Position numbers and translations under genes: made by a program. Shown here piece after piece: positions 49,159 to 60,800 of a stretch of 64,000 nucleotides of DNA; within the stretch, counting starts at the first letter, position 1, and each line of letters begins with the position of its first letter. The notes beneath the pieces are model-generated. The model was not told where the DNA came from. It saw only the letters and a program-made list of their open reading frames with translations, and searched no databases. The stretch is from Streptacidiphilus anmyonensis (GTDB taxonomy: Bacteria; Actinomycetota; Actinomycetes; Streptomycetales; Streptomycetaceae): assembly GCF_000787855.1 (NCBI RefSeq), contig NZ_BBPQ01000010.1, positions 1 through 64,000 on the forward strand. Reading direction: 5' to 3'.

Positions 49159-49217
49159 TCGTCCGGCCAAGGTGCTGCCGCCGATTCTCCTTATCCTGCG
49201 TGCGAACGGGAGAGGGA

Positions 49218-50777
49218 ATGAGCAGCTCAGACCAGGACGCGATCGAGCGACCCTACGACGGATGCGGCAGGTGCTTGCTGGGCGTCCGGCGGTTGTCCCG
49301 GATGAAGGGGACGACGTACTCGCCGGAGAGCCAGCGGGCGGACGTGCTCGCGGCCGCTGCTGCGGTGGGAGGTCACATCGTCGGCTGGGCCGACGACTGG
49401 GAGGTGTCCGGTGCCACGGACCCGATTACCCGACCGAAGCTCGGTCCGTGGCTCCGGGACGAGATGGGACCCTACGACGGGTTGGTGGCTGCGGCGGTCG
49501 ACCGCCTCGGCCGCAACGTGGTCGACTGCCTCAATACCGGCTACAAGATGCGCGACGAGGGCAAGCTCCTCGTGACCTACGGTCATGAGGGGGCGTGGGA
49601 CCTTGACGACCCGGTCGACGAGAACCGCTTCACCATGGAGGCGTGGGGCGCCCAGATGGAGCTGCGCGCCATCCAGCGTCGCAACCGCAACGCCACCGTG
49701 AAGACCCGAGCCGCTGGGCGTCCGAAGGGCAAGCCGTCATACGGTTTCCAGTTCGTACGGGTGACCATGGGCGGCAAGATCGATCATGTAGACCTGCACC
49801 CGCACGCTTCCGAGGTGATCAGGAACGTTGCACGCCGCATTCTGGCTGACCCCGAACACATCACCCCCAGCAGTGAGGCAGCTCGGCTGAACCGCGCCGG
49901 TGAGCTGTCGCCGGCCGACCACTTGGCGGTGATGTACGGCAAGCCCTCGCAGGGCCGCCCATGGCATCCGAGCACCGTGAAGAGCATTCTGCGGTCCGAA
50001 GCGGCGCTGGGCTACCTCATGCACAAGGGCAAGCCGGTCATCGGCACGGACGGTCACCCGGTCCGACTCTGTGAGGGGCTTTGGGACCGGGCGACGCACG
50101 ATGCGCTTCAGAAGGCCCTCGCGCCGTACAGGATGGCCTGGAAGGGACGGCGCACGAACCGCGCGTACCTGCTGACCCAGGTGGCTGTCTGCGGGCAGTG
50201 CGGGAACCGGCTCTACACACAGACGTCCGCGGTGGAGCCGCCCCGCTACACGTGCACCGCCCGAAACAAGGGCTGGGTTTCCGCCGAGAACTGCCGCCCT
50301 GCCCCGCTCGTCCGCATGAAGATCCTGGACACATGGGTCGAGGAATGGTTCTTGCAGACGTTCGGAGACGGTCTGATCTACGAGACGGTGTTTGACCCGG
50401 GCAACGGCATCCCCGAACGCATCGCCGAGCTCCAGGCGAACCGTGAGCGCCTCCGAGCCGACCGACAAGCAGGACTGTACGACGCGCCGGACGACGCCGA
50501 ATGGTTCCGCTCGCGCTACGCCGAGATGGGCCACGAGCTGGCTGCGTTGGAGGCAGAGCCGGTGCGGAATCCAGGAATGGTCCGGCGTCCGACCGGTGAG
50601 ACCGTGGCGGATCGCTGGGAGAAGGCACCCGATGTTCAAGCGCGTAAGGAGATCCTGCTCGACTTCGGTGTCCGAGTGACGCTGTTCCCGGCAGGCGCTC
50701 CTCGCCGGTGGAAGGCCGACGTCCAGGGCGGCCGGGCTCCAAGTCGAGATCCCTCTCGGTACGTGCTTTCCGCTTGA
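49218..50777 (+). CDS. Large serine integrase
   Basis: The 519-aa site-specific recombinase mediates integration and excision of a mobile element. The catalytic domain (residues about 20-150) shows LGVRRLSRMKGTTYSPESQR, with S27 the likely nucleophile, then DDWEVSGATDPITRP and VAAAVDRLGRN (conserved Asp-Arg-x-x-Arg). The recombinase domain covers about 165-290 (PKGKPSYGFQF, STVKSILRSEAALGYL). The zinc ribbon has CGQCGNRLYT and YTCTARNKG...NC (about 317-355), and a coiled-coil follows (about 395-455). The ATG at 49218 follows GGGAGAGGGA. Codon use is less GC-extreme than in the neighbouring core genes. A perfect hairpin follows the gene. Confidence 0.93.
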   Translation: MSSSDQDAIERPYDGCGRCLLGVRRLSRMKGTTYSPESQRADVLAAAAAVGGHIVGWADDWEVSGATDPITRPKLGPWLRDEMGPYDGLVAAAVDRLGRNVVDCLNTGYKMRDEGKLLVTYGHEGAWDLDDPVDENRFTMEAWGAQMELRAIQRRNRNATVKTRAAGRPKGKPSYGFQFVRVTMGGKIDHVDLHPHASEVIRNVARRILADPEHITPSSEAARLNRAGELSPADHLAVMYGKPSQGRPWHPSTVKSILRSEAALGYLMHKGKPVIGTDGHPVRLCEGLWDRATHDALQKALAPYRMAWKGRRTNRAYLLTQVAVCGQCGNRLYTQTSAVEPPRYTCTARNKGWVSAENCRPAPLVRMKILDTWVEEWFLQTFGDGLIYETVFDPGNGIPERIAELQANRERLRADRQAGLYDAPDDAEWFRSRYAEMGHELAALEAEPVRNPGMVRRPTGETVADRWEKAPDVQARKEILLDFGVRVTLFPAGAPRRWKADVQGGRAPSRDPSRYVLSA

Positions 50778-50839
50778 GAGAAGAGAGCGGTTCGGGGGCT
50801 GCACTACACCACAACTCCAGCATCGCGAAATCCGTCAGG

Positions 50840-50881
50840 ACTCCGATCCTGGTGAGCAGTGCCGCTCACCAGGATCGGAGT
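50840..50881. terminator. Perfect 18-bp hairpin after the integrase
   Basis: ACTCCGATCCTGGTGAGC (50840-50857) pairs exactly with 50864-50881 around a 6-nt AGTGCC loop, 62 bp after the integrase stop. It overlaps the 5' end of the next open frame. Confidence 0.75.
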
Positions 50882-51509
50882 TGCTGAGGTGCTTGTTGAG
50901 CACGAGGACGTAGTTGGTTTCCTCATGGCAGAGGAGTCGAGGAACGGGCGGACGGTGGCGCTACCCGCCTGGAAGATGACAACCGGAGATCGGGCTGTGG
51001 CCGATGGTGTGCTTCGCGCTTATGGAGGAGTGAGGCGTACTCGCGGCGACGGGCGCGGGTATGACTGCATGCTGCGCTGCGATTCGATAGCGATCCGCGT
51101 GAACCCCCGAGTTGACATCACAAATCACCTGGTACTGAGGAAGGGTGAGGACCTGGTTCGCGTCTGTGATGGATCGGTGCTCCTGCATCTTGCGAGCAGC
51201 TCAGGCGCGCTCTGCTCCTGTCCAGTTGATGCATTCGAACGCCGGGCAGCCGCGAGGGCGGGAACCGGGCCTAAGCCCGAGGTCCGCCTCACGTTCGAAC
51301 TTGCGGAGGGGCCAGAGCTAGGACGATTCTCGCTGTTCTCGTCATCCTGGGAACTTGCGGACTCCCTGCGCCGTGTCTTGCCCGGGACGGATACGAACGT
51401 AGATCGAGTTGAACTCGTTCTGGATCTGCATAGGAAGCAGTTCGCGACCCGTTCGGGACTTGACGTCAGCATCGTCTTTCCAGCTGCGGCGTCCCTCCCA
51501 TCGAAGTGA
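50859..51509 (+). CDS. Putative gp3-like recombination directionality factor
   Basis: The 216-codon open frame follows the integrase on the same strand. Its layout resembles the gp3-like directionality-factor family known from phiC31-type phages and integrative elements: LPAWKMTTGDRAVADGVLRAYGG (cited as LPAWKMTTGD and AVADGVLRAYGG, residues about 35-57), RVCDGSVLLH (about 101-110), a CSCP pair (119-122), and KPEVRLTFELAE...GRFSLFSSSWELADSLRRV (about 139-173). Such proteins switch a serine integrase from integration to excision. Similarity is by motif order only, so this is inference. The GTG at 50859 lies inside a hairpin; GTG 50889 or ATG 50925 may be the true start. Confidence 0.5.
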   Translation: MPLTRIGVAEVLVEHEDVVGFLMAEESRNGRTVALPAWKMTTGDRAVADGVLRAYGGVRRTRGDGRGYDCMLRCDSIAIRVNPRVDITNHLVLRKGEDLVRVCDGSVLLHLASSSGALCSCPVDAFERRAAARAGTGPKPEVRLTFELAEGPELGRFSLFSSSWELADSLRRVLPGTDTNVDRVELVLDLHRKQFATRSGLDVSIVFPAAASLPSK

Positions 51510-51588
51510 ATCCTCGGTCAATCCCCTCGCTTGCCTTGCTTGACACCCCGCAGGGCTTCGGCGTGGTCGACTGATGTCCGTTTCATGA

Positions 51589-52495
51589 TCACGCGAGGTC
51601 GAGGAGTTCGAGCCGTCGGCGGGCGTCGCGCGCGTTGCGGCGGAGTCCTGCGGCGATGTTCGTGACGCCGTTGAGCCGGAGGGCGCCGACAGCGAGGTTT
51701 CCGCGGGTCGCCATCGCGCGCGGAGCGTTGCCGGTCCGTAGCTGGGAGGCATCCTCGGTGAAGGTGGTGTCGCGAACATGGTGCAGGGCCTCGATCTTCC
51801 AATGGTCTCGGATCAGCTGTGCGAGCTGGGCGGGGATGGCCTGCTCGACAGTCAGGCTGGTCACCGCGTAGACGGTGGTGATCGTCGACTTGCCGGTTTT
51901 GCGGTCGGTACGGCGGCACTTGATCTGAAAGGCCTGGTGGGCGCCGGGGACGAGCAGGTTGTTGACGCTGGCGACCTTGATCCGGTGGATCTCGGCGCGG
52001 CCGTGGCCGGTGCCGCGGGTGCGTCCCTGGAGCGGGATGTCCTTCCAGGGCAGGGACTTCAGCTGCTTGCGCAGCTTCTTCCGGTTGCCTGGCGATCGAG
52101 ATGTAGTGGGCCCGGCGACCGAGGAGGTAGCCGGCGTGCTCGCGCTTGTTGTGCAGCTGCGTCGCTGGTGACGACCCTGCCGGCGAGGTCGTCGACGCTG
52201 TCCAGCAGCGGCTGGAAGCGGCTGGTCCCGCCGACGTCGAGCTGGGCCAGCACCAGCCCAGTGGTGTGCTCCAGGCCGCGAGCAGGTGGATCTTCCGCCC
52301 CGGTCCTTCGTCGCGCCGCGCAGGGACTTGCCGTCCACGGACAGGCCGCGCGGCCCGGCTCCAGCAGGCTGGCGATCGGCGAGTCATCCGCCGACTGCCT
52401 GATCCAGGGCATCCCCGTCGATGCGCGCGAGAAGTCGGCGAACCGACGATGTTGCTCCCGGCGAGATGCAGTGGGCAGTACCTGCCGTTCACTGG
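51589..52495 (-). pseudogene. Decayed ISAs1-family transposase
   Basis: Minus-strand pieces of an ISAs1-type DDE transposase are spread over three frames. Frame 1 gives [20 protein letters not shown], a TGA at 52384-52386 where the family has Trp, then [12 protein letters not shown]. The next segments, [55 protein letters not shown], lie in alternating frames, and the last 170 codons return to frame 1 ([52 protein letters not shown]). So there are at least four frameshifts and one nonsense change, and the N-terminus (about 80-100 residues) is missing at the flavoprotein gene junction. I could not identify terminal inverted repeats. Confidence 0.85.
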
Positions 52496-52499
52496 TCGA

Positions 52500-53042
52500 T
52501 CAAGCGTTCGACTTCGCTTCGAGCACGTGGCGCAGCAGCTTCAGCACGGTGTTCCAGTTGTAGTTGTCGCGCCCCCCGCCCGCCTTCGGCTTGTGCGGCA
52601 GGTAGTCGCCGAACAGGACGCCCATGGAGCGGAGGCGTTGAAGGCTCGCCTCGTAGGCGGGGTGGGCTGCCTGGGCCGAGTTGACGTATGGCTGAGCCGC
52701 CACGGGGATGCCCAATCCGTACGCCTCGGTCAGGATGCCCAGCGCCAGGGTGTCGGCGTGGCCGTCCGCCCACTTGTTGATCGTGTTGAAGGTGGCCGGT
52801 GCGACCGCGATGGCGTCGGCTGGCGGCAGCGACGCGGGTACGTCGGGTGTGCGCCAGGCCGATCGGATCGTGTAGCCGGTCTGCTCCTCGATGGCCGCGG
52901 TATCTATGAACTCCATGGCGTTCGGCGTAGCCACCACACCGACCCGCCAGCCTTCTTCCTGGGCGGCCGAGATCAGCTTGCCGACGTCGTCCGCAATGCC
53001 CGAGGCGCACACAATGACGTACAGGAACGGCTGGCTGGTCAA
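52500..53042 (-). CDS. HFCD-family flavoprotein
   Basis: The 180-aa Rossmann-like flavoprotein belongs to the family of phosphopantothenoylcysteine decarboxylase and peptidyl-cysteine decarboxylases (EpiD, MrsD). It has VIVCASGIADDVGKLISAA near the N-terminus, the family PxSANT-like motif as APATFNTINKWADGHADTLA (residues about 81-100), and PVAAQPYVNSAQAAHPAYE, the FMN/substrate loop region. It is translationally coupled (ATGA) to the XRE-TPR regulator upstream. Similar flavoprotein-regulator pairs occur in streptomycete genomes, but the substrate is unknown. No lanthipeptide synthetase is in view, so a peptide-decarboxylase role is not supported. Confidence 0.8.
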   Translation of the reverse strand: MTSQPFLYVIVCASGIADDVGKLISAAQEEGWRVGVVATPNAMEFIDTAAIEEQTGYTIRSAWRTPDVPASLPPADAIAVAPATFNTINKWADGHADTLALGILTEAYGLGIPVAAQPYVNSAQAAHPAYEASLQRLRSMGVLFGDYLPHKPKAGGGRDNYNWNTVLKLLRHVLEAKSNA

Positions 53043-54313
53043 GCTCGGACTCCCAACTCGCGGCTGAACTGGCGTAGCTCAGGTAGGGTGCCGCGCCGAT
53101 CCCGAGCCGCCATGTCGGCCACCAGCTCACGGATGTCCGGTCGACGCCGGATGTCTTCAGCCGCGTGGCGTTCAGCGATCCGTAGGGCGCGGTAGCCCTC
53201 GAACAGTTTGCCTTGCTGGTTGTAGGCGCGGGCAAGGTCCACCCACAAGGCCGCCTGTCGCTCGGGCGCCGGGATGCGGCGGCGCAGCAGGGGGCGAGCA
53301 GCGTTAAGGGCGGCTCCTGCGTCTCCCAGGGTCACCGCGGCCGAGACCCGGTGCAGCGCCACGTTGGTCGAGCTGAAGTTGGCCCAGGCGTCCGGCTGAT
53401 CCCGGTTGACGTACTGGGCCACTTCCTCGGCCTGGGCCAGCAGGTCTTGGGTGGTGCTGCGGTCGCCACCAGCGCTGGCCGCCGTGACGCCGCGCAGCAG
53501 CATCAGGCCGAAGGCTGCCAGGTCGGCCGGCTCGCGCTGGTCGTAGTGGCCGCCGAGCTGGTTTGCCGTGTGCTGGACCAATGTGACGGCTGGGCCGGTG
53601 TGGCGCTCGCGGGCCATCAGGTGGGCCTGGACTCGGACGCTGGAGGCTAGGACTATCGGGTCGCTGCTGCGCTCGGCCTCGCTCATCGCCCGCCCGACCG
53701 CCAACCAGGCGTTGCCGTGGTCGCCGAGCTTGAGCAGCAGACTGACGGCGGTCTGGTAGGTGGTGGCGGTGAGGCCGGCCAGCGCCAGGGCGCCGGGCGC
53801 TTCATGCTGGGCGTGGCGCAGATCGGTCAGCAGCTCCGGCAACAGCGCTTCGAGCTCGGTGTAGCGGCAGGCGTAGAAGAGCCGCCGTGCCTGCGACAGA
53901 CGCCCTCGGAGGGCCGCCTCGGTCAGAGGCCGCCGGTCTGGCAGCGGAGCAGCCGCGGGCAGTAAGGCCTGGATGAGTTCCAAGCCAGCGGTATGGGGTC
54001 GGGCCGGGGTGGCGAGGGCTGCGACGCCTGCCGCCAGGAAGCCGCGACGATGCATGTCGTCCGTCCTGAGATCCGCGCTGGTAGGAGCGGTCAGGCCCAG
54101 GCTTTCCAGGGGGATGTCGAGTTCCGCCGCGACGGCCCGGAGCACCCGGACGTCGTCGACGCCCTTGCCGCTCTCAAGACGGCTGAGCTTCGACTGGTTG
54201 TAGCCCAGCTTGGAAGCCACGTCCTCCTGCGACCGGCCAGCCAGCACTCGGGCGCGTCGAATCACTGTTCCGAGCTGACGCGCCGCGGTGGGCTCCCCAG
54301 TCGCCTGCGACAT
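53039..54313 (-). CDS. XRE-family regulator with TPR-like C-terminal region
   Basis: The 424-aa protein has an N-terminal XRE helix-turn-helix (residues about 12-65; VIRRARVLAGRSQEDVASKL, GYNQSKLSRLESGKG), a twin-Arg-like HRRGFLAAG segment near 88 that is frequent in this streptomycete family, and a long helical TPR-like C-terminal part (about 120-400; repeats such as ALWVDLARAYNQQGKLFEGY). It starts at the ATG at 54313 with GGAGGAG 4 nt upstream and overlaps the flavoprotein gene by 4 nt. A perfect CTGCATG-GTT-CATGCAG dyad 75 bp upstream is a probable autoregulatory site. Confidence 0.88.
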   Translation of the reverse strand: MSQATGEPTAARQLGTVIRRARVLAGRSQEDVASKLGYNQSKLSRLESGKGVDDVRVLRAVAAELDIPLESLGLTAPTSADLRTDDMHRRGFLAAGVAALATPARPHTAGLELIQALLPAAAPLPDRRPLTEAALRGRLSQARRLFYACRYTELEALLPELLTDLRHAQHEAPGALALAGLTATTYQTAVSLLLKLGDHGNAWLAVGRAMSEAERSSDPIVLASSVRVQAHLMARERHTGPAVTLVQHTANQLGGHYDQREPADLAAFGLMLLRGVTAASAGGDRSTTQDLLAQAEEVAQYVNRDQPDAWANFSSTNVALHRVSAAVTLGDAGAALNAARPLLRRRIPAPERQAALWVDLARAYNQQGKLFEGYRALRIAERHAAEDIRRRPDIRELVADMAARDRRGTLPELRQFSRELGVRA

Positions 54314-54387
54314 GGCTCCTCCTGCCACCCTCAGCCTGCCGGGCGTGGGCCCGAGCAGCCGATCTGGATCAAGACGTTATGCACAGT

Positions 54388-54807: not shown

Positions 54808-55317
54808 ATGACCGAGACCCAGGTCCACACGGTCGAGCGCACGCTCGTGCTGCTCAAGCCCGACGCGGTGGCCCGCGGTCTGGCCGGACGCATCCTGCAG
54901 CGGTTCGAGGACGCCACGCTCAAGATCGTCGGCACGAAGATGAAGTGGATGGACGCCGAGTTCAGTCGCAAGCACTACTTCGACCTGGAGGAGCGCCTCG
55001 GCTCCGAGGTCTACAACCTGACCGCCACCTTCATGCAGCAGGGTCCGGTCATCGCCCTGGTGCTGGAGGGCTACGACGCCGTCGCCACGGTCCGCAAGAT
55101 CGTGGGCAGCACCTACCCGGACCAGGCGCCCGCCGGCACCATCCGCGGGGACTTCTCGCAGATGAGCCGCGACGCCAGCGTGGCGGTGGGCAAAGCGGTG
55201 GCCAACCTGATCCACGCCTCCGGCAACAAGGAGGAGGCGGAGCAGGAAGTCGAGCTCTGGTTCTCCAAGGACGAGCTGTTCGACTACCAGACCCTCGCCC
55301 AGTCCTACGTCTACTGA
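54808..55317 (+). CDS. Nucleoside-diphosphate-kinase-like protein
   Basis: The 169-aa protein has the NDK fold: RTLVLLKPDAVARGLAGRIL (residues 11-30; catalytic-site Lys17), LEGYDAVATVRKIVGST, GTIRGDF (110-116) and the phospho-accepting His in NLIHASGN (His136), then EAEQEVELWFSKDEL. Housekeeping NDKs are about 137 aa and read IRGDF directly into the NIIHGSD region. Here an insertion of about 10 residues (SQMSRDASVAVGKAVA region) and a C-terminal extension (FDYQTLAQSYVY) are present, and ASGN replaces GSDS. It may balance NTP pools or act on an unusual nucleotide. First gene of the plus-strand cargo run; AAAGGGAA precedes the ATG. Confidence 0.85.
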   Translation: MTETQVHTVERTLVLLKPDAVARGLAGRILQRFEDATLKIVGTKMKWMDAEFSRKHYFDLEERLGSEVYNLTATFMQQGPVIALVLEGYDAVATVRKIVGSTYPDQAPAGTIRGDFSQMSRDASVAVGKAVANLIHASGNKEEAEQEVELWFSKDELFDYQTLAQSYVY

Positions 55318-55399
55318 TCTTCGGCCGGGGCGTCACCAACTACGGCGCCCTCCCGTTGAGCACTACCAACGCACGAGAGTCGCAACAAGAAGGGGCACC

Positions 55400-55699
55400 A
55401 TGAGCAACCAGTCTCGCCTGGCAACTCCCGCGGAGCTGGAGGCGGCCTTCCAGCAGGAGCTGGCGACCGACCGGTGGGCGGCCACCGAGACGGCCTACGC
55501 CCTGGCGACGCTGCTCCGGGACGCCGGGGAGTGGGACCAGTCGCGCACCTGGGTCACGCAGTGCCTGGACCTGCTGGGAACTCAGCCCACCGACGAGTTG
55601 GAGCAGGTGGTGCCGCGGCGGCAGTCCGTGGGTGGTGTGCCGCTGCCCAACTACCTGCATGAGGGTGTCGTCCGCGAGCGGTTCGGCGAGCTCGCCTAA
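55400..55699 (+). CDS. Hypothetical 99-aa protein
   Basis: A small acidic protein with no signal peptide or membrane segment. The first 60 residues are helical (ATPAELEAAFQQELATDRWA, ALATLLRDAGEWDQSRTWVTQ) and could form a TPR-like hairpin. The end (VGGVPLPNYLHEGVVRERFGELA) has a short conserved-looking loop. AAGGGGCACC precedes the ATG. It sits between the NDK-like and CYTH genes on the same strand. No function can be assigned. Confidence 0.6.
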   Translation: MSNQSRLATPAELEAAFQQELATDRWAATETAYALATLLRDAGEWDQSRTWVTQCLDLLGTQPTDELEQVVPRRQSVGGVPLPNYLHEGVVRERFGELA

Positions 55700-55789
55700 C
55701 CGTACCGAGCTGCCGGTGGTGCGGATCGTCTTCTGCACCGGTTCGCGCCACCGGTTGATCCGAGATCCACAACTGCATATCGGCTCATC

Positions 55790-55822
55790 CGAACTGGCCA
55801 GGGGATACCTGGCGCCAGTTCG
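55790..55822. other. Two-part hairpin before the CYTH gene
   Basis: CGAACTGGC / GCCAGTTCG outer arms enclose CAGG-GGATA-CCTG, a stable hairpin 41 bp upstream of the CYTH start and 91 bp after the 99-aa gene. It may be a terminator, an attenuator or an operator dyad dividing the run. Confidence 0.5.
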
Positions 55823-55862
55823 GCTGCATCAGCCATGCCCAAAACACGCGAAGGAGCAGACG

Positions 55863-56447
55863 TTGGCCGTCGAGATCGAGATGCGCGCCAGGTTCGACAA
55901 GGAGACGCACGACCAGCTGGTGGCCCTCCTGATGGAGAAGGCCGAGGACCTGGGCCAGGACGACAAGCACATCTACTTCTTCGTCCTGCCGGACCAGCTG
56001 CTCAAGGTCACCGACAACAAGTCGGCCGGCACCGCCAAGATCACGCTCAAGAACAGCAAGATCGGCCAGGGCTCGGCCTTCGGCGAGACCGAGTTCCCCA
56101 TCGCGCAGCAGGACGTGGCGGCCGCCGTCGAGGTCTTCAACGCGCTGGGCTTCCAGGAGGCCATGCACGAGGCCTTCAACTTCCGGCGCAACTTCAACTT
56201 CAAGGGCATCGAGATCGCGGTCAAGTGGAGTGAGGCGTGGGGCTACCACGCCGAGTTCGAACGGCTGCTCACGGACGACGCCACGGCCGCCGCCAAGGAC
56301 GAGGCCGTCGCCGAGATCACCGACGTCGCCGACGAGCTGGGCGTGACCCTGATGACCGAGGACGAGCTGGCCGCGTTCACGGCGGCCTTCGAGGCCGCCG
56401 AGCAGGCCCGCAAGGAGGCCGATCAGTCGCCGGCCGAAATCCACTAG
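55863..56447 (+). CDS. CYTH-domain protein (class IV adenylate cyclase/ThTPase-like)
   Basis: The 194-aa protein has the CYTH tunnel-fold pattern: an N-terminal ExExR (VEIEMR, residues 3-8), DKHIYFFVLPDQLLKVTD, AKITLKNSKIG (basic strand), GETEFPI, a helix (AAAVEVFNALGF), FNFRRNFNF, and VKWSEAWGYHAEFERLL, the late Glu-x-Glu-like strand. CYTH enzymes bind triphosphates with two metal ions; known members make cAMP (CyaB), hydrolyse thiamine triphosphate or inorganic triphosphate, or process RNA 5' ends. The start is the TTG at 55863, 6 nt after AAGGAG. The C-terminal 60 residues are acidic and helical. Activity cannot be told from sequence. Confidence 0.72.
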   Translation: MAVEIEMRARFDKETHDQLVALLMEKAEDLGQDDKHIYFFVLPDQLLKVTDNKSAGTAKITLKNSKIGQGSAFGETEFPIAQQDVAAAVEVFNALGFQEAMHEAFNFRRNFNFKGIEIAVKWSEAWGYHAEFERLLTDDATAAAKDEAVAEITDVADELGVTLMTEDELAAFTAAFEAAEQARKEADQSPAEIH

Positions 56448-56489
56448 GAGTCCCGGACGCCTGAATCCACCGAGGGGGTGGGCCGCACC

Positions 56490-57251
56490 GTGAGCACAAC
56501 CCGAACGGACAGCCTGGTCGAGTTAGCTGCCCGGAAGCAGTTGCCGTACCACCAGTTCACCGACGTCGCCACGGTCGAGTGGATCAAGGCCAACCGGCCT
56601 GACTTCCCGCCGGCCTGGCCGCCGCCGTTGCGCCCCACCACCAAGGCCCTGGTCGAGCGGGCCGCCATCCCGACACGCTGGCTGGCCGAGCCGAAGCTGG
56701 CCGACTCCATCCACGGCCACCGCCACGGCCTGCGCACGGCGGTCCTCGCCGCGCTGCTGGCCGATTGGCGCGGCTGGGACGAGCGGATGACCGCCACGGC
56801 CGTCATCGCGGCGGCGGTACACGACTGCCAGCGGCACCACGACCGGGACGACCAGGGCCACGGCGCACGAGCGGCCGTCTGGCTGGCCGCCAACGCCGAG
56901 CTGGTGTGGAGCCACTTCGGCCTGAGCCCGCACACGCGCCGCGTGGTTCAGGCGGCCACCGCCGTGCGGTTGCACGAAGTGCCGTACGACGCGTTCAGTG
57001 CCGTTGACCAGGTCGACTACGCCCGCGCCTCGCGAGTCTGCGACCTTGTGAAGGTGGCGGACGCCTTGGACCGCTACCGGCTTCCGAAGCTGTCCTGGTG
57101 GCCCGACGGTCAGTTCGTCCGGGAGCCGGCGTTCGAGCAGCTGAAGCCCCTGGCCTACGACCTGGTGGTGACCTCGGAAGCCGCCTTCCTGGCAGGGGCC
57201 AGCAGCGCCGAAGCCGTCGCGTTCGCGGTCGCCGAGAAGGGGCTGGTGTGA
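56490..57251 (+). CDS. HD-domain phosphohydrolase-like protein
   Basis: The 253-aa protein has an HD metal site: SIHGHRHGLRTAVLAALLAD (His at about 75-79), AAAVHDCQRHHDRDD (HD pair at about 111-112), GHGARAA (His about 124) and LVKVADALDRYRL (Asp about 196). HD proteins hydrolyse nucleotides, dNTPs, cyclic nucleotides or (p)ppGpp. The GTG at 56490 is chosen because GAGGGGG is 12 nt upstream; GTG 56478 is the alternative. It is 42 bp after the CYTH gene and 3 bp before the next gene, so one transcript is likely. A CYTH cyclase-like protein next to an HD hydrolase suggests synthesis and breakdown of a phosphate compound. Confidence 0.78.
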   Translation: MSTTRTDSLVELAARKQLPYHQFTDVATVEWIKANRPDFPPAWPPPLRPTTKALVERAAIPTRWLAEPKLADSIHGHRHGLRTAVLAALLADWRGWDERMTATAVIAAAVHDCQRHHDRDDQGHGARAAVWLAANAELVWSHFGLSPHTRRVVQAATAVRLHEVPYDAFSAVDQVDYARASRVCDLVKVADALDRYRLPKLSWWPDGQFVREPAFEQLKPLAYDLVVTSEAAFLAGASSAEAVAFAVAEKGLV

Positions 57252-57254
57252 GCC

Positions 57255-58670
57255 GTGGACTTCCTCGACGCCTACAACCTCTGGGCCGACGCCCACGCCT
57301 TCTTCGACACCAGCCTCATACCAACCATGCCGAACCCGGACGACCCCCTGGGGGCGCAGACGGCGGCTTGGAACGACCGACTGGCCATCGGGACGCCGAA
57401 CGGGCACCTGCTGCGCCGCAACAGCCTGTTCGACGCTCTCTCCGGCGGCGGCAAGCTGCACCTACTGCACGTCACGCACGCCCTGGAGGAGATCACCCGT
57501 AACGGCGTGCTCTACCCGTCCGGAGGGTGCCTGGTCGGCAGCATCTACTGCGCGCCGCTGGCCGTCACCGAGCAGGGCTTCCGCCCGCACAACCTCGGCT
57601 CCTACGTGCTGGGCCGCGAGGCGCCGGCCTTCCTGACTCGTATTGGCGAGCCGGACCGTAAGCCCACGCCGTTGATCTTCGAGCTGAATCTGCCGCCGCA
57701 GGCGTACCAGGGCTTAGCTGGCATCGACTACCTGCGCCTCGGATCGATTCACCTGGCCATCTACAGCCACCTGGAGTACCTGCTCTCCAAGGCAGAGCGG
57801 CACCAGCTGCGCGAGACCGTGGTCAGCCGGGCCAAGAACTCCACCGCCTTCCTGGCGCTGGCTGCGGCCATCGCCTACCAGGGCGTGGTCGTGTCGCCCG
57901 CGGCCTTCCTGCGGCAGCTCGACGAGACGATCCCGCGTCTGCCGATCCTGGGCTACCTGTACTTCGAGGCGCTATCCGAGTACGTCATGCTCCACTCGAA
58001 TAGCCCGCGCACCCAGCAGCTGGCCGAGCTGGGCGAGTTCAACAACTGGCTCTACAAGGAGATGTTGTTCGCCGTCCCGGGGATGATTGGGAAGTTCGAC
58101 CTGGCCAAGTTCCGGGTGCCGCCGGCCAAGCTCGCGAGCGTGCTTCAGCAGCTGGACCCGACCCTCGACCCGACTGAGGCCGAGGTCTACCTGGCTGACC
58201 GCATCAGCCACCTGGTGGCCGCTCGACTCTTCACGCCGGGACAGGTGCCCGAGACCTGGCGCCACACCCGCTGGGAGTTCGACAGCCTGGCCACTCAGCT
58301 CGGGCCGCTGCTCGGCCACCTCATCCATCGCGAGCTGCGCACCTTCGGCCGCTACCCGGACTTCTACTTCTACTTCGACCAGTTCAAGGCCCTCCAGGCA
58401 TGGAACTACTGGAATCACCTCGACATCATCACGCCGTTCAACGGCACCATCCCCAAGGGCGAGATCGGGATCAACCCGGCGTACCCCAACCTCGACTACC
58501 GGATCTGGCGCGCCGAAGCCGATGAGGCCGGCCATCTTCATCCGGTAGAGCAGCTGGACCTGACGGTTGCCCCGCGCCTGGTGGACATCAAGTACACCCT
58601 GATGCGCAACAGCGGCACCGTGATCGCAAGCCCGCGAAGCCCACGTGCGGAGGAGTCCTATGTCCGCTGA
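57255..58670 (+). CDS. Unknown 471-aa protein, possibly ADP-ribosyltransferase-like
   Basis: I do not recognise a family. Visible: residues 69-100 read HLLHVTHALEEITRNG then VLYPSGGCLVGSIYC, a pattern like the H-x-T...I...G-L segment at the start of ART-fold domains (DarT or RNA 2'-phosphotransferase types). GSIHLAIYSHLEYLLSKAE follows near 175. The middle (190-290) is helical and fairly hydrophobic but without clear TM segments. The last 120 residues are aromatic-rich (RYPDFYFYFDQF, ALQAWNYWNHLD). The GTG at 57255 begins 3 bp after the HD gene; the end overlaps the methyltransferase start by 11 nt, so it is firmly part of the cargo operon. Confidence 0.65.
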   Translation: MDFLDAYNLWADAHAFFDTSLIPTMPNPDDPLGAQTAAWNDRLAIGTPNGHLLRRNSLFDALSGGGKLHLLHVTHALEEITRNGVLYPSGGCLVGSIYCAPLAVTEQGFRPHNLGSYVLGREAPAFLTRIGEPDRKPTPLIFELNLPPQAYQGLAGIDYLRLGSIHLAIYSHLEYLLSKAERHQLRETVVSRAKNSTAFLALAAAIAYQGVVVSPAAFLRQLDETIPRLPILGYLYFEALSEYVMLHSNSPRTQQLAELGEFNNWLYKEMLFAVPGMIGKFDLAKFRVPPAKLASVLQQLDPTLDPTEAEVYLADRISHLVAARLFTPGQVPETWRHTRWEFDSLATQLGPLLGHLIHRELRTFGRYPDFYFYFDQFKALQAWNYWNHLDIITPFNGTIPKGEIGINPAYPNLDYRIWRAEADEAGHLHPVEQLDLTVAPRLVDIKYTLMRNSGTVIASPRSPRAEESYVR

Positions 58671-59340
58671 GGAACACAGCACGGCCGGTGGCTGGCCGGC
58701 GCCTGCTGAGCCCGCAGAAGCGCTGTTCACCGAGATCTTCCAGACCAATCACTGGGGGTCGAGCGAGTCGGTTTCTGGCCCGGGGTCGGAGCTGCGGCAG
58801 ACGGAGGCGGTTCGGGCTGCCTTGGCCTCGGTGCTCGCGCGCTACCCGATCCGGACCGTTACGGACGTCGGCTGCGGCGACGTGAACTGGATTCGCCACG
58901 TCGACGGCTTCGACCAGCTGGACCGCTACATCGGACTCGACGTGGTCGCCGACCTTGTTCGTCGCAACCAGGAGCGGTACGGCAACGAGCGCGTTTCCTT
59001 CCGGCAGGCCGACTTGAGCCGGGACGAGATTCCGGCGGCTGACCTCGTCATCGCCCGGGACTGCCTTGTCCACCTCACCCATCACGAGGCGCTGGCCTTC
59101 CTCGACCGCTTGGCGGCCAGCAGCTCGACCTGGCTGCTCACCACCACCTACGTGGGTCTGGCCGAGAACCGTGACACCACGGGCAGCCACTGGCGTCCGC
59201 TCAATCTTCAGACGGCTCCGTTCTGCCTGCCCGCGCCCACCCTGCACTTCGACACCGACTTCACGGACAACGGCCGCCACCACCCCGGCAATGGACTGGG
59301 CCTCTGGAAGATCGACCAGCTCCGGGCTCGCACTGCCTGA
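58660..59340 (+). CDS. Class I SAM-dependent methyltransferase (first)
   Basis: The 226-aa protein has a Rossmann methyltransferase core: VTDVGCGDVNWI (motif I, residues about 69-80), YIGLDVVADLV (acidic loop, motif II), ADLVIARDCLVHLTHHEA (motif IV region) and STWLLTTTYVGLAEN. The substrate is unknown. The ATG at 58660 has GGAGGAG 4 nt upstream and overlaps the previous gene by 11 nt. The final third (HWRPLNLQTAPFCLPAP) looks like a substrate-binding extension. Together with the second methyltransferase downstream it suggests two successive methylations within the cargo run. Confidence 0.82.
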   Translation: MSAEEHSTAGGWPAPAEPAEALFTEIFQTNHWGSSESVSGPGSELRQTEAVRAALASVLARYPIRTVTDVGCGDVNWIRHVDGFDQLDRYIGLDVVADLVRRNQERYGNERVSFRQADLSRDEIPAADLVIARDCLVHLTHHEALAFLDRLAASSSTWLLTTTYVGLAENRDTTGSHWRPLNLQTAPFCLPAPTLHFDTDFTDNGRHHPGNGLGLWKIDQLRARTA

Positions 59341-59399
59341 CGCACGTTCCGTCCTGCTCGACCCTTCATCCACTTCTGCAAGACGAGGAGACATCTGCC

Positions 59400-60140
59400 A
59401 TGTCCAGGGACATTTCCGGCATACCGTCCGTTGATCTGCTCGGCGAGCAGATCGCCGCGGTGCTGGCCGACCCGACCGTTGGCCACGGCCTGGCCCGCAC
59501 GCTGCGCGCTGCCGCCAAGGAAGTCGAGCTGAGCCGGTACCACCGGGCCAGCCAGCGCGCCTACCCGGATGGTCTGGACGAGCGGCCGTCCAAGGTCCAG
59601 ATCGGCGGAGGTAGCCACCAGTTGGACGGCTTCTTCAACATCGACCTGGTACCGCCGGCCGACCTGCTCTGGGACGTGCGTGAGGGCATCCCGCTCCAGA
59701 GCGACACCGTCGAGCTGCTGTTCAACGAGCACTTCCTGGAGCACATCGACTACCCGCGGTCGGCAAAGGGCTTCGCCCGCGAGGCGCACCGGGTGCTGGC
59801 GCCGGGCGGCCGGATCATCACGGGCGTGCCGGATGCCGCCTTCGTGCTGAACGGGTATCCGGCCGCTCCGAAGCAGACCGCCGAGATGGTCGAGCGCTGG
59901 TACTCGAAGCGCAGCTGCCGGGGGGACATCAACACCTTCCTCGACCTGATCAACTACGTCCTCCGCGACCAGGACGATGACCCCACTTACACCCCGCATC
60001 TCTGGGCCTACGACTTCGAGAAGCTGGCCCAGCTGTTCACCGAGGCCGGCTTCTCCAAGGTCGAGCCCTGGATCTTCGACCCGACCCTGGCCAACCCGAA
60101 GCGCGAGTGGGCCAGCGTCTACGTCATCGCCACCAAGTAG
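59400..60140 (+). CDS. Class I SAM-dependent methyltransferase (second)
   Basis: The 246-aa protein has a variant methyltransferase core: KVQIGGGSHQLDGFFNIDL (residues about 65-83, glycine-rich loop), LLWDVREGIPLQSDTVELLFNEHFLEHI (cited as WDVREGIPLQSDTVELLF and NEHFLEHI), and AHRVLAPGGRIITGVPD. This is the style of SAM enzymes acting on glycosyl or small molecules (N-H-F-L-E-H motif). The first 55 residues form a helical lead. AGACGAGGAG is upstream of the ATG at 59400. It is 59 bp after the first methyltransferase. Substrate unknown. Confidence 0.82.
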   Translation: MSRDISGIPSVDLLGEQIAAVLADPTVGHGLARTLRAAAKEVELSRYHRASQRAYPDGLDERPSKVQIGGGSHQLDGFFNIDLVPPADLLWDVREGIPLQSDTVELLFNEHFLEHIDYPRSAKGFAREAHRVLAPGGRIITGVPDAAFVLNGYPAAPKQTAEMVERWYSKRSCRGDINTFLDLINYVLRDQDDDPTYTPHLWAYDFEKLAQLFTEAGFSKVEPWIFDPTLANPKREWASVYVIATK

Positions 60141-60209: not shown

Positions 60210-60800
60210 ATGTCGCAACCACCGCCCCGGTCCCGCAGTCACCTGCTGCTCGCCGACACACCCAACGCCGCGGGTTGGGCCAGATGCCACACCCGCGACG
60301 TGTTGCGCCGCTGGCAGGTGCCTCCCGACTTGATCGACACCGTCCTGCTGGTGGTGTCCGAGCTGGCCACCAACGCCATCTGTCACCCCGGTGGCACGAA
60401 GCAGCCGGAGAAGCTGACCTCGGCTGACCTGGCCAAGGTGCGGAGCTTTGGGCTGGATCTTCAGCTGCTCGGCCAGGGCGTGGTGGTTCAGGTTGCCGAC
60501 CGTGATCCGAGGCCCCCAGTGCTTCAGGAGGCCGGCGAAGACGACGAGGGTGGCCGGGGCATCTTCCTGGTTGAGCACATGAGCCAGCAGTGGGGCTTCT
60601 ATCACCCGCAGGCTGGCGGGAAGGTTGTCTGGGCGGAAGTGCGTCTTGGAGCTGAGTCGAAGTCGCCGGAGCCGGCGAGCGTAAGGCCGCAGTCCAACCC
60701 GACGGGTCGGCCCCAGCCGCTTCAGAGCGCCGACGAGCAACTGCCAGCTGATGACCCGCTCGTGATCGGGCGTGTACTGGTGGGGTTGCGAGGACTCTGA
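60210..60800 (+). CDS. HATPase_c_2 (anti-sigma/RsbW-like) ATP-binding protein
   Basis: The 196-aa protein carries a GHKL ATPase fold of the RsbW/SpoIIAB-like type common in streptomycetes: VLLVVSELATNAICHPGG (N-box, residues about 46-63), VVVQVADRDPRPP (G1-like Asp) and GGRGIFLVEHMSQQWGF (G2-like, about 113-129). The C-terminal 45 residues are Pro/Ser-rich and unstructured. It could inhibit a sigma factor or act as a protein kinase on an anti-anti-sigma factor. AGGAGGCG precedes the ATG. It ends the plus-strand run, 70 bp after the second methyltransferase, and is convergent with the P450 gene. Confidence 0.85.
   Translation: MSQPPPRSRSHLLLADTPNAAGWARCHTRDVLRRWQVPPDLIDTVLLVVSELATNAICHPGGTKQPEKLTSADLAKVRSFGLDLQLLGQGVVVQVADRDPRPPVLQEAGEDDEGGRGIFLVEHMSQQWGFYHPQAGGKVVWAEVRLGAESKSPEPASVRPQSNPTGRPQPLQSADEQLPADDPLVIGRVLVGLRGL

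Follow-up and report, generated by a model that had tools for sequence, protein, structure and literature searches.

The cassette and its genes

We analysed a stretch of 64,000 nt from Streptacidiphilus anmyonensis (contig NZ_BBPQ01000010.1, positions 1 to 64,000; hereafter the window), whose host genome of 9.39 Mb is that of a Streptomycetaceae-type actinomycete. Near the end of the window lie seven intact open reading frames (ORFs), all in one direction, encoding a nucleoside diphosphate kinase (NDK), a small protein (p99), a CYTH protein, an HD-type phosphohydrolase, a 471-residue protein that we call U471, and two class I S-adenosylmethionine (SAM) methyltransferases (MT1 and MT2). An earlier inspection of the letters alone (the sequence-only reading) had proposed these genes as a candidate undescribed system. 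The genes of the cassette are as follows:

54808..55317, + strand: NDK, nucleoside diphosphate kinase, archaeal-like cassette copy (PF00334, 1.2e-39)
55400..55699, + strand: p99, small cassette-specific protein (TPR_7, 0.012, sub-threshold)
55863..56447, + strand: CYTH or triphosphate tunnel protein with ExExR plus ExE, predicted triphosphatase (cyaB, 3.7e-7, below the cut-off)
56478..57251, + strand: HD-type phosphohydrolase (invariant H...HD...D residues)
57255..58670, + strand: U471, founder of an undescribed family and core of the cassette (no Pfam, NCBIfam, PADLOC or PDB match)
58660..59340, + strand: MT1, SAM methyltransferase, optional (PF13649, Methyltransf_25, 2.9e-7, above the cut-off; phrog_3382, 3e-47)
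59400..60140, + strand: MT2, SAM methyltransferase, core member (PF08241, Methyltransf_11, 5e-5, above the cut-off)

The start of CYTH was corrected to a TTG at 55863, which is preceded by GAAGGAG. The last five genes are closely spaced, as had been noted (gaps of 3-60 bp or overlaps): the intervals from CYTH through HD, U471 and MT1 to MT2 are 30, 3, -11 and 59 bp, the start of MT1 overlapping the end of U471 by 11 bp. Upstream of these, 82 bp separate NDK from p99 and 163 bp separate p99 from CYTH. Comparison with two relatives showed six genes to be under purifying selection (Ka/Ks 0.26-0.57).

Conservation of the cassette as a unit

Relatives of U471 were sought in 249 Streptomycetaceae genomes, of which 46 were positive, and across GTDB species, which yielded 53 loci. 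The full order NDK-p99-CYTH-HD-U471-(MT1)-MT2 was present in 37 sequenced loci, and across the complete loci the distance between HD and U471 had a median of 2 bp (range -4 to 25). Because the 37 loci share one gene order and the spacing is tight, the seven-gene observation is confirmed as real and not a product of chance. Within Streptomycetaceae, p99 and the U471 of these cassettes (type A, see below) occurred in exactly the same 16 of 249 genomes, apart from one weak stray p99 match, and the quartet of CYTH, HD, U471 and MT2 recurred in three ultra-small genomes of the candidate phyla radiation (CPR) type. Given the 37 loci, the 16-of-16 co-occurrence and the CPR quartet, the idea that these genes are not conserved together can be set aside, and the proposal of a set conserved as a unit, in fixed order, holds. 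Its membership requires one amendment: six core genes stand, but MT1 is found in only 3 of the 37 complete loci, so the conserved unit, judged by gene order, is one of six genes (NDK, p99, CYTH, HD, U471 and MT2), usually accompanied by two NUDIX genes. The latter form a divergent pair in 29 of the 37 complete loci, and one of the two has a helix-turn-helix-like N-terminus.

The composition varies with the host. In three Micromonosporaceae loci (L068, L069 and L073) MT2 is the first gene. In CPR-type loci (L075, L076, L079 and L081; genomes of 0.5-1.2 Mb) U471 is accompanied by CYTH, HD and in most cases MT2; a cytidine-deaminase-like protein (PF00383), a P-loop kinase and NUDIX proteins replace NDK and p99, and one such locus also has a thymidylate-synthase-like protein (PF00303). 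The U471 family is rare outside Streptomycetaceae: of 396 genomes sampled evenly across the phylum, only that of the window matched, and in the phylum to which L075 belongs 2 of 380 genomes had a member. Three loci (L048, L057 and L058, at about 4.1-7.4 kb) carry an extra HD protein, a NUDIX protein and a HAD phosphatase upstream of NDK, together with a further protein that is CYTH-like by eye. A transposase-like insertion splits NDK from p99 in Streptomyces ipomoeae (L072, about 6.6-8.1 kb), where the remaining cassette is intact.

Predicted chemistry of NDK, CYTH and HD

NDK, CYTH and HD have all kept their catalytic residues. The first, labelled NDK-like by the sequence-only reading, combines the NDK fold (closest solved chain 2cwk, 6e-38) with a catalytic histidine, His136, that is invariant in 42 copies; it is the second NDK in the genome, besides the housekeeping NDK (C125).

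CYTH had been described as a triphosphate-binding protein, a predicted identity that its tunnel residues bear out. The triphosphate tunnel site is there, with its metal site (R for K), basic tunnel residues and ExE motif; E4, E6, R8, K48, K63, R108, K121, E131 and E133 are invariant in 48 copies. The homologue from CPR matches PF01928 above the cut-off (2.8e-10), as well as the solved structures 2een, 1yem and 2dc4. Class IV cyclases carry HFxxxxExExK and have alanine in place of the second ExE glutamate, which separates them from triphosphatases (PMC8233210). The window CYTH starts MAVEIEMR, with no HF motif and with ExExR instead of ExExK. Because it lacks HF and keeps both ExE glutamates, CYTH should be a triphosphatase, by prediction, and not a signal-making cyclase. 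A class IV cyclase (CyaB) role was rejected, neither the HF motif nor the Glu-to-Ala change being present. The earlier suggestion that CYTH makes, and HD destroys, a signal found no supporting evidence; both proteins resemble phosphohydrolases.

The HD protein of the window has no Pfam match, and its CPR homologue (L076) matches PF01966 at 0.001 (19.6 bits against a cut-off of 22). Its assignment as a probable HD hydrolase, as first proposed, rests on the H...HD...D metal ligands of HD phosphohydrolases: H83, H115-D116, H128, H166 and D189/D195 are invariant in 52 copies. The HD gene lies immediately upstream of U471 in both type A and type C loci.

Partners that recur around these genes include NUDIX, Ham1, HAD and second HD proteins, deaminases, nucleotide kinases and thymidylate-synthase-like proteins; one locus (L086) has a dTMP kinase, a radical SAM protein and a NUDIX protein nearby. 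These partners support nucleotide chemistry as the likely common theme.

U471, founder of a new family

U471, the 471-residue unknown of the sequence-only reading, falls into no recognised family and defines a new one. It has no match in Pfam, NCBIfam or PADLOC, and no credible sequence match in the PDB. An AlphaFold2 model was confident (pLDDT 86, pTM 0.87), and a Foldseek search with it found no match at E<=0.001 in PDB or BFVD.

The N-terminus hints at an ADP-ribosyltransferase (ART) core. The motif LLHVTHALEEITRNGVLYPSGGC...GSIYCAPL resembles the NAD-binding start of DarT (HxT beta-alpha motif), and H72, Y98 and E403 are invariant. Aligned by hhalign with DarT, the U471 N-terminus scored 26.7 (E 0.0023); the true ART pair KptA-DarT scored 23.0 and column shuffles reached at most 20.7 (0 of 400 as high as U471-DarT). 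DUF952, an additional ART comparator, showed no similarity, and rifampin-ART (Arr) had one weak relative among 41 genomes, too few for a comparator alignment.

Four genomic settings of U471

U471 occurs in four settings, A to D, which form largely coherent groups in a maximum-likelihood tree; a type A member adjacent to a tail-tube gene (L089) is a branch separate from the other members placed there. Type A is the cassette described above. In type B, U471 comes fourth in pPIWI-RE operons, after PprRE, PprDinG and PprPIWI (identified with Pfam and PADLOC). The type B loci, all from Streptomyces (L066, L067, L070, L105, L106 and L111), form one clade with support of 99/99, and in five of the six the start codon of U471 shares letters with the PIWI stop codon (ATGA in four, TGATG in one), the sixth having a short gap.

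In type C, HD-U471 has genes for an epimerase, glycosyltransferases and an aminotransferase as neighbours; the genome of the window carries a second U471 of this type (L103). Type D has no HD; here the neighbours of U471 encode a TauD-type dioxygenase, UDP-glucose dehydrogenase and glycosyltransferases, and the U471 gene often adjoins phage portal genes or sits on plasmids. In three IMG/VR loci (L092-L094, about 4-14 kb), genes for a TauD dioxygenase, GT2, UDP-glucose dehydrogenase, U471 and a GT4-type glycosyltransferase lie shortly upstream of a phage portal gene; the group could be a recurrent prophage cargo, a module for sugar or nucleic-acid modification. On a Nonomuraea plasmid (L085, 4743-5743 and 18369-18959), HD-U471 is preceded by dCTP-deaminase-like and dCMP-deaminase genes and followed by an annotated Pycsar effector.

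Mobility and genomic context

The distribution supports a cassette that is mobile, patchy and passed on as a unit. It is present in 16 of 249 family genomes (6%), in prophages, beside relaxases and with variable flanks; type A cassettes abut phage tail-tube genes in L041, L047, L088 and L089, and U471 relatives are also carried on plasmids. In a close relative of the window genome (G133, locus L110) the cassette adjoins orthologues of the window's 10-21 kb, and not of its 55 kb region, so the insertion site differs. A phage origin of the core was rejected, as 50,697 phage records contained no U471, HD or CPR CYTH homologue; only MT1 has phage relatives (phage family phrog_3382).

The features flanking the cassette in the window are:

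49200..50777, + strand: serine recombinase (integrase) of the island, context and not core (PF00239, Resolvase, 7.7e-14; PF13408, zinc ribbon, 2.1e-5)
50859..51509, + strand: Gp3-like recombination directionality factor, context (PF18897, 1.6e-5)
52500..53042, - strand: flavoprotein, phosphopantothenoylcysteine-decarboxylase-like, divergent accessory (PF02441, 9.7e-12)
53039..54328, - strand: XRE/NsdA-like TPR regulator, divergent (PF13560, 5.8e-10; NsdA_fam_reg, 1.1e-11, below the cut-off)
60210..60800, + strand: HATPase_c_2 protein, anti-sigma/RsbW-like (PF13581, 4.5e-14)

The serine recombinase confirms the integrase-bearing island of the sequence-only reading. Recombinase and directionality factor (49200-51509) head the island in the order of a phiC31-style integration/excision pair, and GC content is lower at 48-64 kb (0.65-0.70) than elsewhere (about 0.69-0.76). 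The XRE/NsdA-like TPR protein, 83% identical in L110, is a candidate regulator of the cassette operon; the divergent flavoprotein gene is shared with L082 and L110, the nearest relatives among the loci (84% identity in L110). The HATPase_c_2 protein is a frequent downstream accessory: 19 of 50 loci have an ORF like it. The NUDIX pair that L082 and L110 retain has been lost from the window cassette, and transposase-like ORFs (51518-52492; by eye, without a Pfam match) stand in its place. The flanks of the loci contain mixed families, with isolated matches to Cas1, type I specificity, relaxase and resolvase proteins, for which there is no baseline and no defence-island enrichment is claimed. In L062 (12124-14463) the cassette adjoins a Ham1-type nucleoside triphosphate pyrophosphatase and a type I-C CRISPR Cas1 (Cas1c).

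A possible role in genetic conflict

Our preferred reading, which we put forward tentatively, is that of a mobile, nucleotide-centred cassette that would serve conflict with phages or other mobile elements. A conflict role is best supported because of prophage carriage, patchiness and the pPIWI-RE operons. The sequence-only reading had suggested a signalling-based defence or a modified-nucleotide pathway; its nucleotide theme stands and a defence link through pPIWI-RE is plausible, but the cyclase signal falls away.

NDK, or P-loop kinases in other hosts, would supply nucleoside triphosphates, while CYTH, HD and NUDIX proteins would trim phosphates and clear unwanted or non-canonical nucleotides. 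U471, possibly ADP-ribosyltransferase-like (H72-x-T, Y98, E403), would be a group-transfer enzyme with a nucleotide or nucleic acid as donor or acceptor; MT2 would methylate the product or target of U471. The modified nucleotide or nucleic acid might then mark, poison or signal during infection. According to PMC3702460, pPIWI-RE operons contain no methylase; in the type B clade, U471 alone would be the enzyme that equips such a guided nuclease operon with modification or an effector function. A more specific and rather doubtful version holds that U471 founds an NAD- or nucleotide-dependent enzyme family that modifies nucleic acids or nucleotides and serves two separate conflict systems, as the core of the seven-gene cassette (in Actinobacteria and CPR-type bacteria) and as a translationally coupled fourth component of pPIWI-RE, perhaps for self-marking or as an effector.

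Several observations weigh against a conflict role or against its proposed chemistry. Type A loci have no systematic neighbouring known defence system, and U471 is absent from the 50,697 phage records. PMC3702460 describes pPIWI-RE, too, as a predicted system, and the nucleotide-sugar and glycosyltransferase genes near U471 in types C and D are just as compatible with biosynthesis. As to the ART core, one of 57 unrelated families scored 27.3 against U471, as high as DarT. Foldseek found no ART match in the PDB for the full U471 model, and none for the N-terminal domain folded alone, whose model was weak (pLDDT 67). In view of the unrelated family and the lack of support from structure searches, we treat the ART core as a lead only.

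A serious, though less probable, rival is a small pathway that makes a modified nucleoside or nucleotide, either an antibiotic or an exported product. NDK, CYTH, HD and NUDIX proteins would handle the phosphates, U471 would form the key bond and the methyltransferases would tailor the product. Natural-product tailoring, the alternative raised at the outset, thus keeps its place: there are two methyltransferases and a Streptomyces host, type C and D U471 genes sit with epimerase, aminotransferase, UDP-glucose dehydrogenase and glycosyltransferase genes, and the radical SAM protein, dTMP kinase and NUDIX protein near L086 would suit such a pathway. However, the conserved unit has no transporter or self-resistance gene, and the quartet is present in CPR-type genomes of 0.5-0.8 Mb, from bacteria that rarely make secondary metabolites. 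Prophage carriage and the single U471 gene of pPIWI-RE operons are also hard to explain by biosynthesis.

Nucleotide-pool sanitation or stress adaptation, with U471 as a further nucleotide-salvage enzyme and mobility as incidental, would account for the MutT-like NUDIX pair and for the Ham1, HD, NDK and deaminase partners. This explanation is improbable in light of the patchy distribution (6% of family genomes), the all-or-none occurrence of p99 and type A U471, the pPIWI-RE and prophage associations, and the separate housekeeping NDK. Least probable is signalling by a cyclic-nucleotide or nucleotide second messenger, with CYTH as its producer, HD as its degrader, NDK as the supplier of substrate and U471 as the effector: adjacent CYTH and HD with NDK in the same operon (37 of 37 complete loci), the weak CyaB-like profile match of CYTH, and the flanking regulator and anti-sigma-like ATPase speak for it, but CYTH departs from class IV cyclases by the criteria of PMC8233210 (no HF motif; E131 and E133 invariant), no cyclic-nucleotide-binding domain was found, and neither HD nor CYTH accompanies U471 in types B and D.

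If the conflict reading is correct, U471 in pPIWI-RE operons offers a handle on self/non-self discrimination or killing by predicted guided restriction systems. More generally, a conserved mobile enzyme set common to Streptomyces and ultra-small CPR-type bacteria suggests undescribed nucleotide chemistry; should the cassette encode a nucleoside pathway instead, it would point to a new class of nucleotide-modifying enzyme.

Comparison with known systems

No searchable known system has the composition of the cassette. NDK, p99, CYTH, HD and U471 have no PADLOC match, and a known defence system was rejected: MT1 and MT2 match only mad2 in PADLOC, as an overlap of methyltransferase domains. Literature on the gene combination and on nucleoside-antibiotic operons gave no matching description. 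What is new is the gene set and the U471 family; their function is predicted.

The likeness to CBASS and Pycsar lies in nucleotide enzymes on mobile DNA, but by Pfam and PADLOC the cassette genes include no CD-NTase, PycC cyclase or receptor effector. CYTH has the conserved tunnel residues and ExE of SaTTM-type triphosphate tunnel metalloenzymes and class IV adenylyl cyclases, and differs from them in having ExExR for ExExK, in lacking HF and W/YxRxR, and in belonging to an operon family of its own. With DarT-type ADP-ribosyltransferases, U471 may share a short HxT beta-alpha motif, which aligns by profile comparison; it has no full-domain sequence or fold match to them, carries a large helical insertion (163-390) and has no DarG-like antitoxin partner that we could see. 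Phage DNA-hypermodification and nucleoside-antibiotic pathways use thymidylate-synthase-like enzymes, deaminases, kinases, NUDIX proteins, phosphohydrolases and methyltransferases, which may be analogues of the cassette partners, whereas the Streptomyces core has neither a thymidylate-synthase-like enzyme nor a transporter.

The closest known system is pPIWI-RE (Ppr). The passages of PMC3702460 that a search found do not mention U471. The window cassette has no PprRE, PprDinG or PprPIWI, and only the clade B relatives belong to such operons, but there U471 proteins 55-57% identical are encoded by the fourth, mostly overlapping gene.

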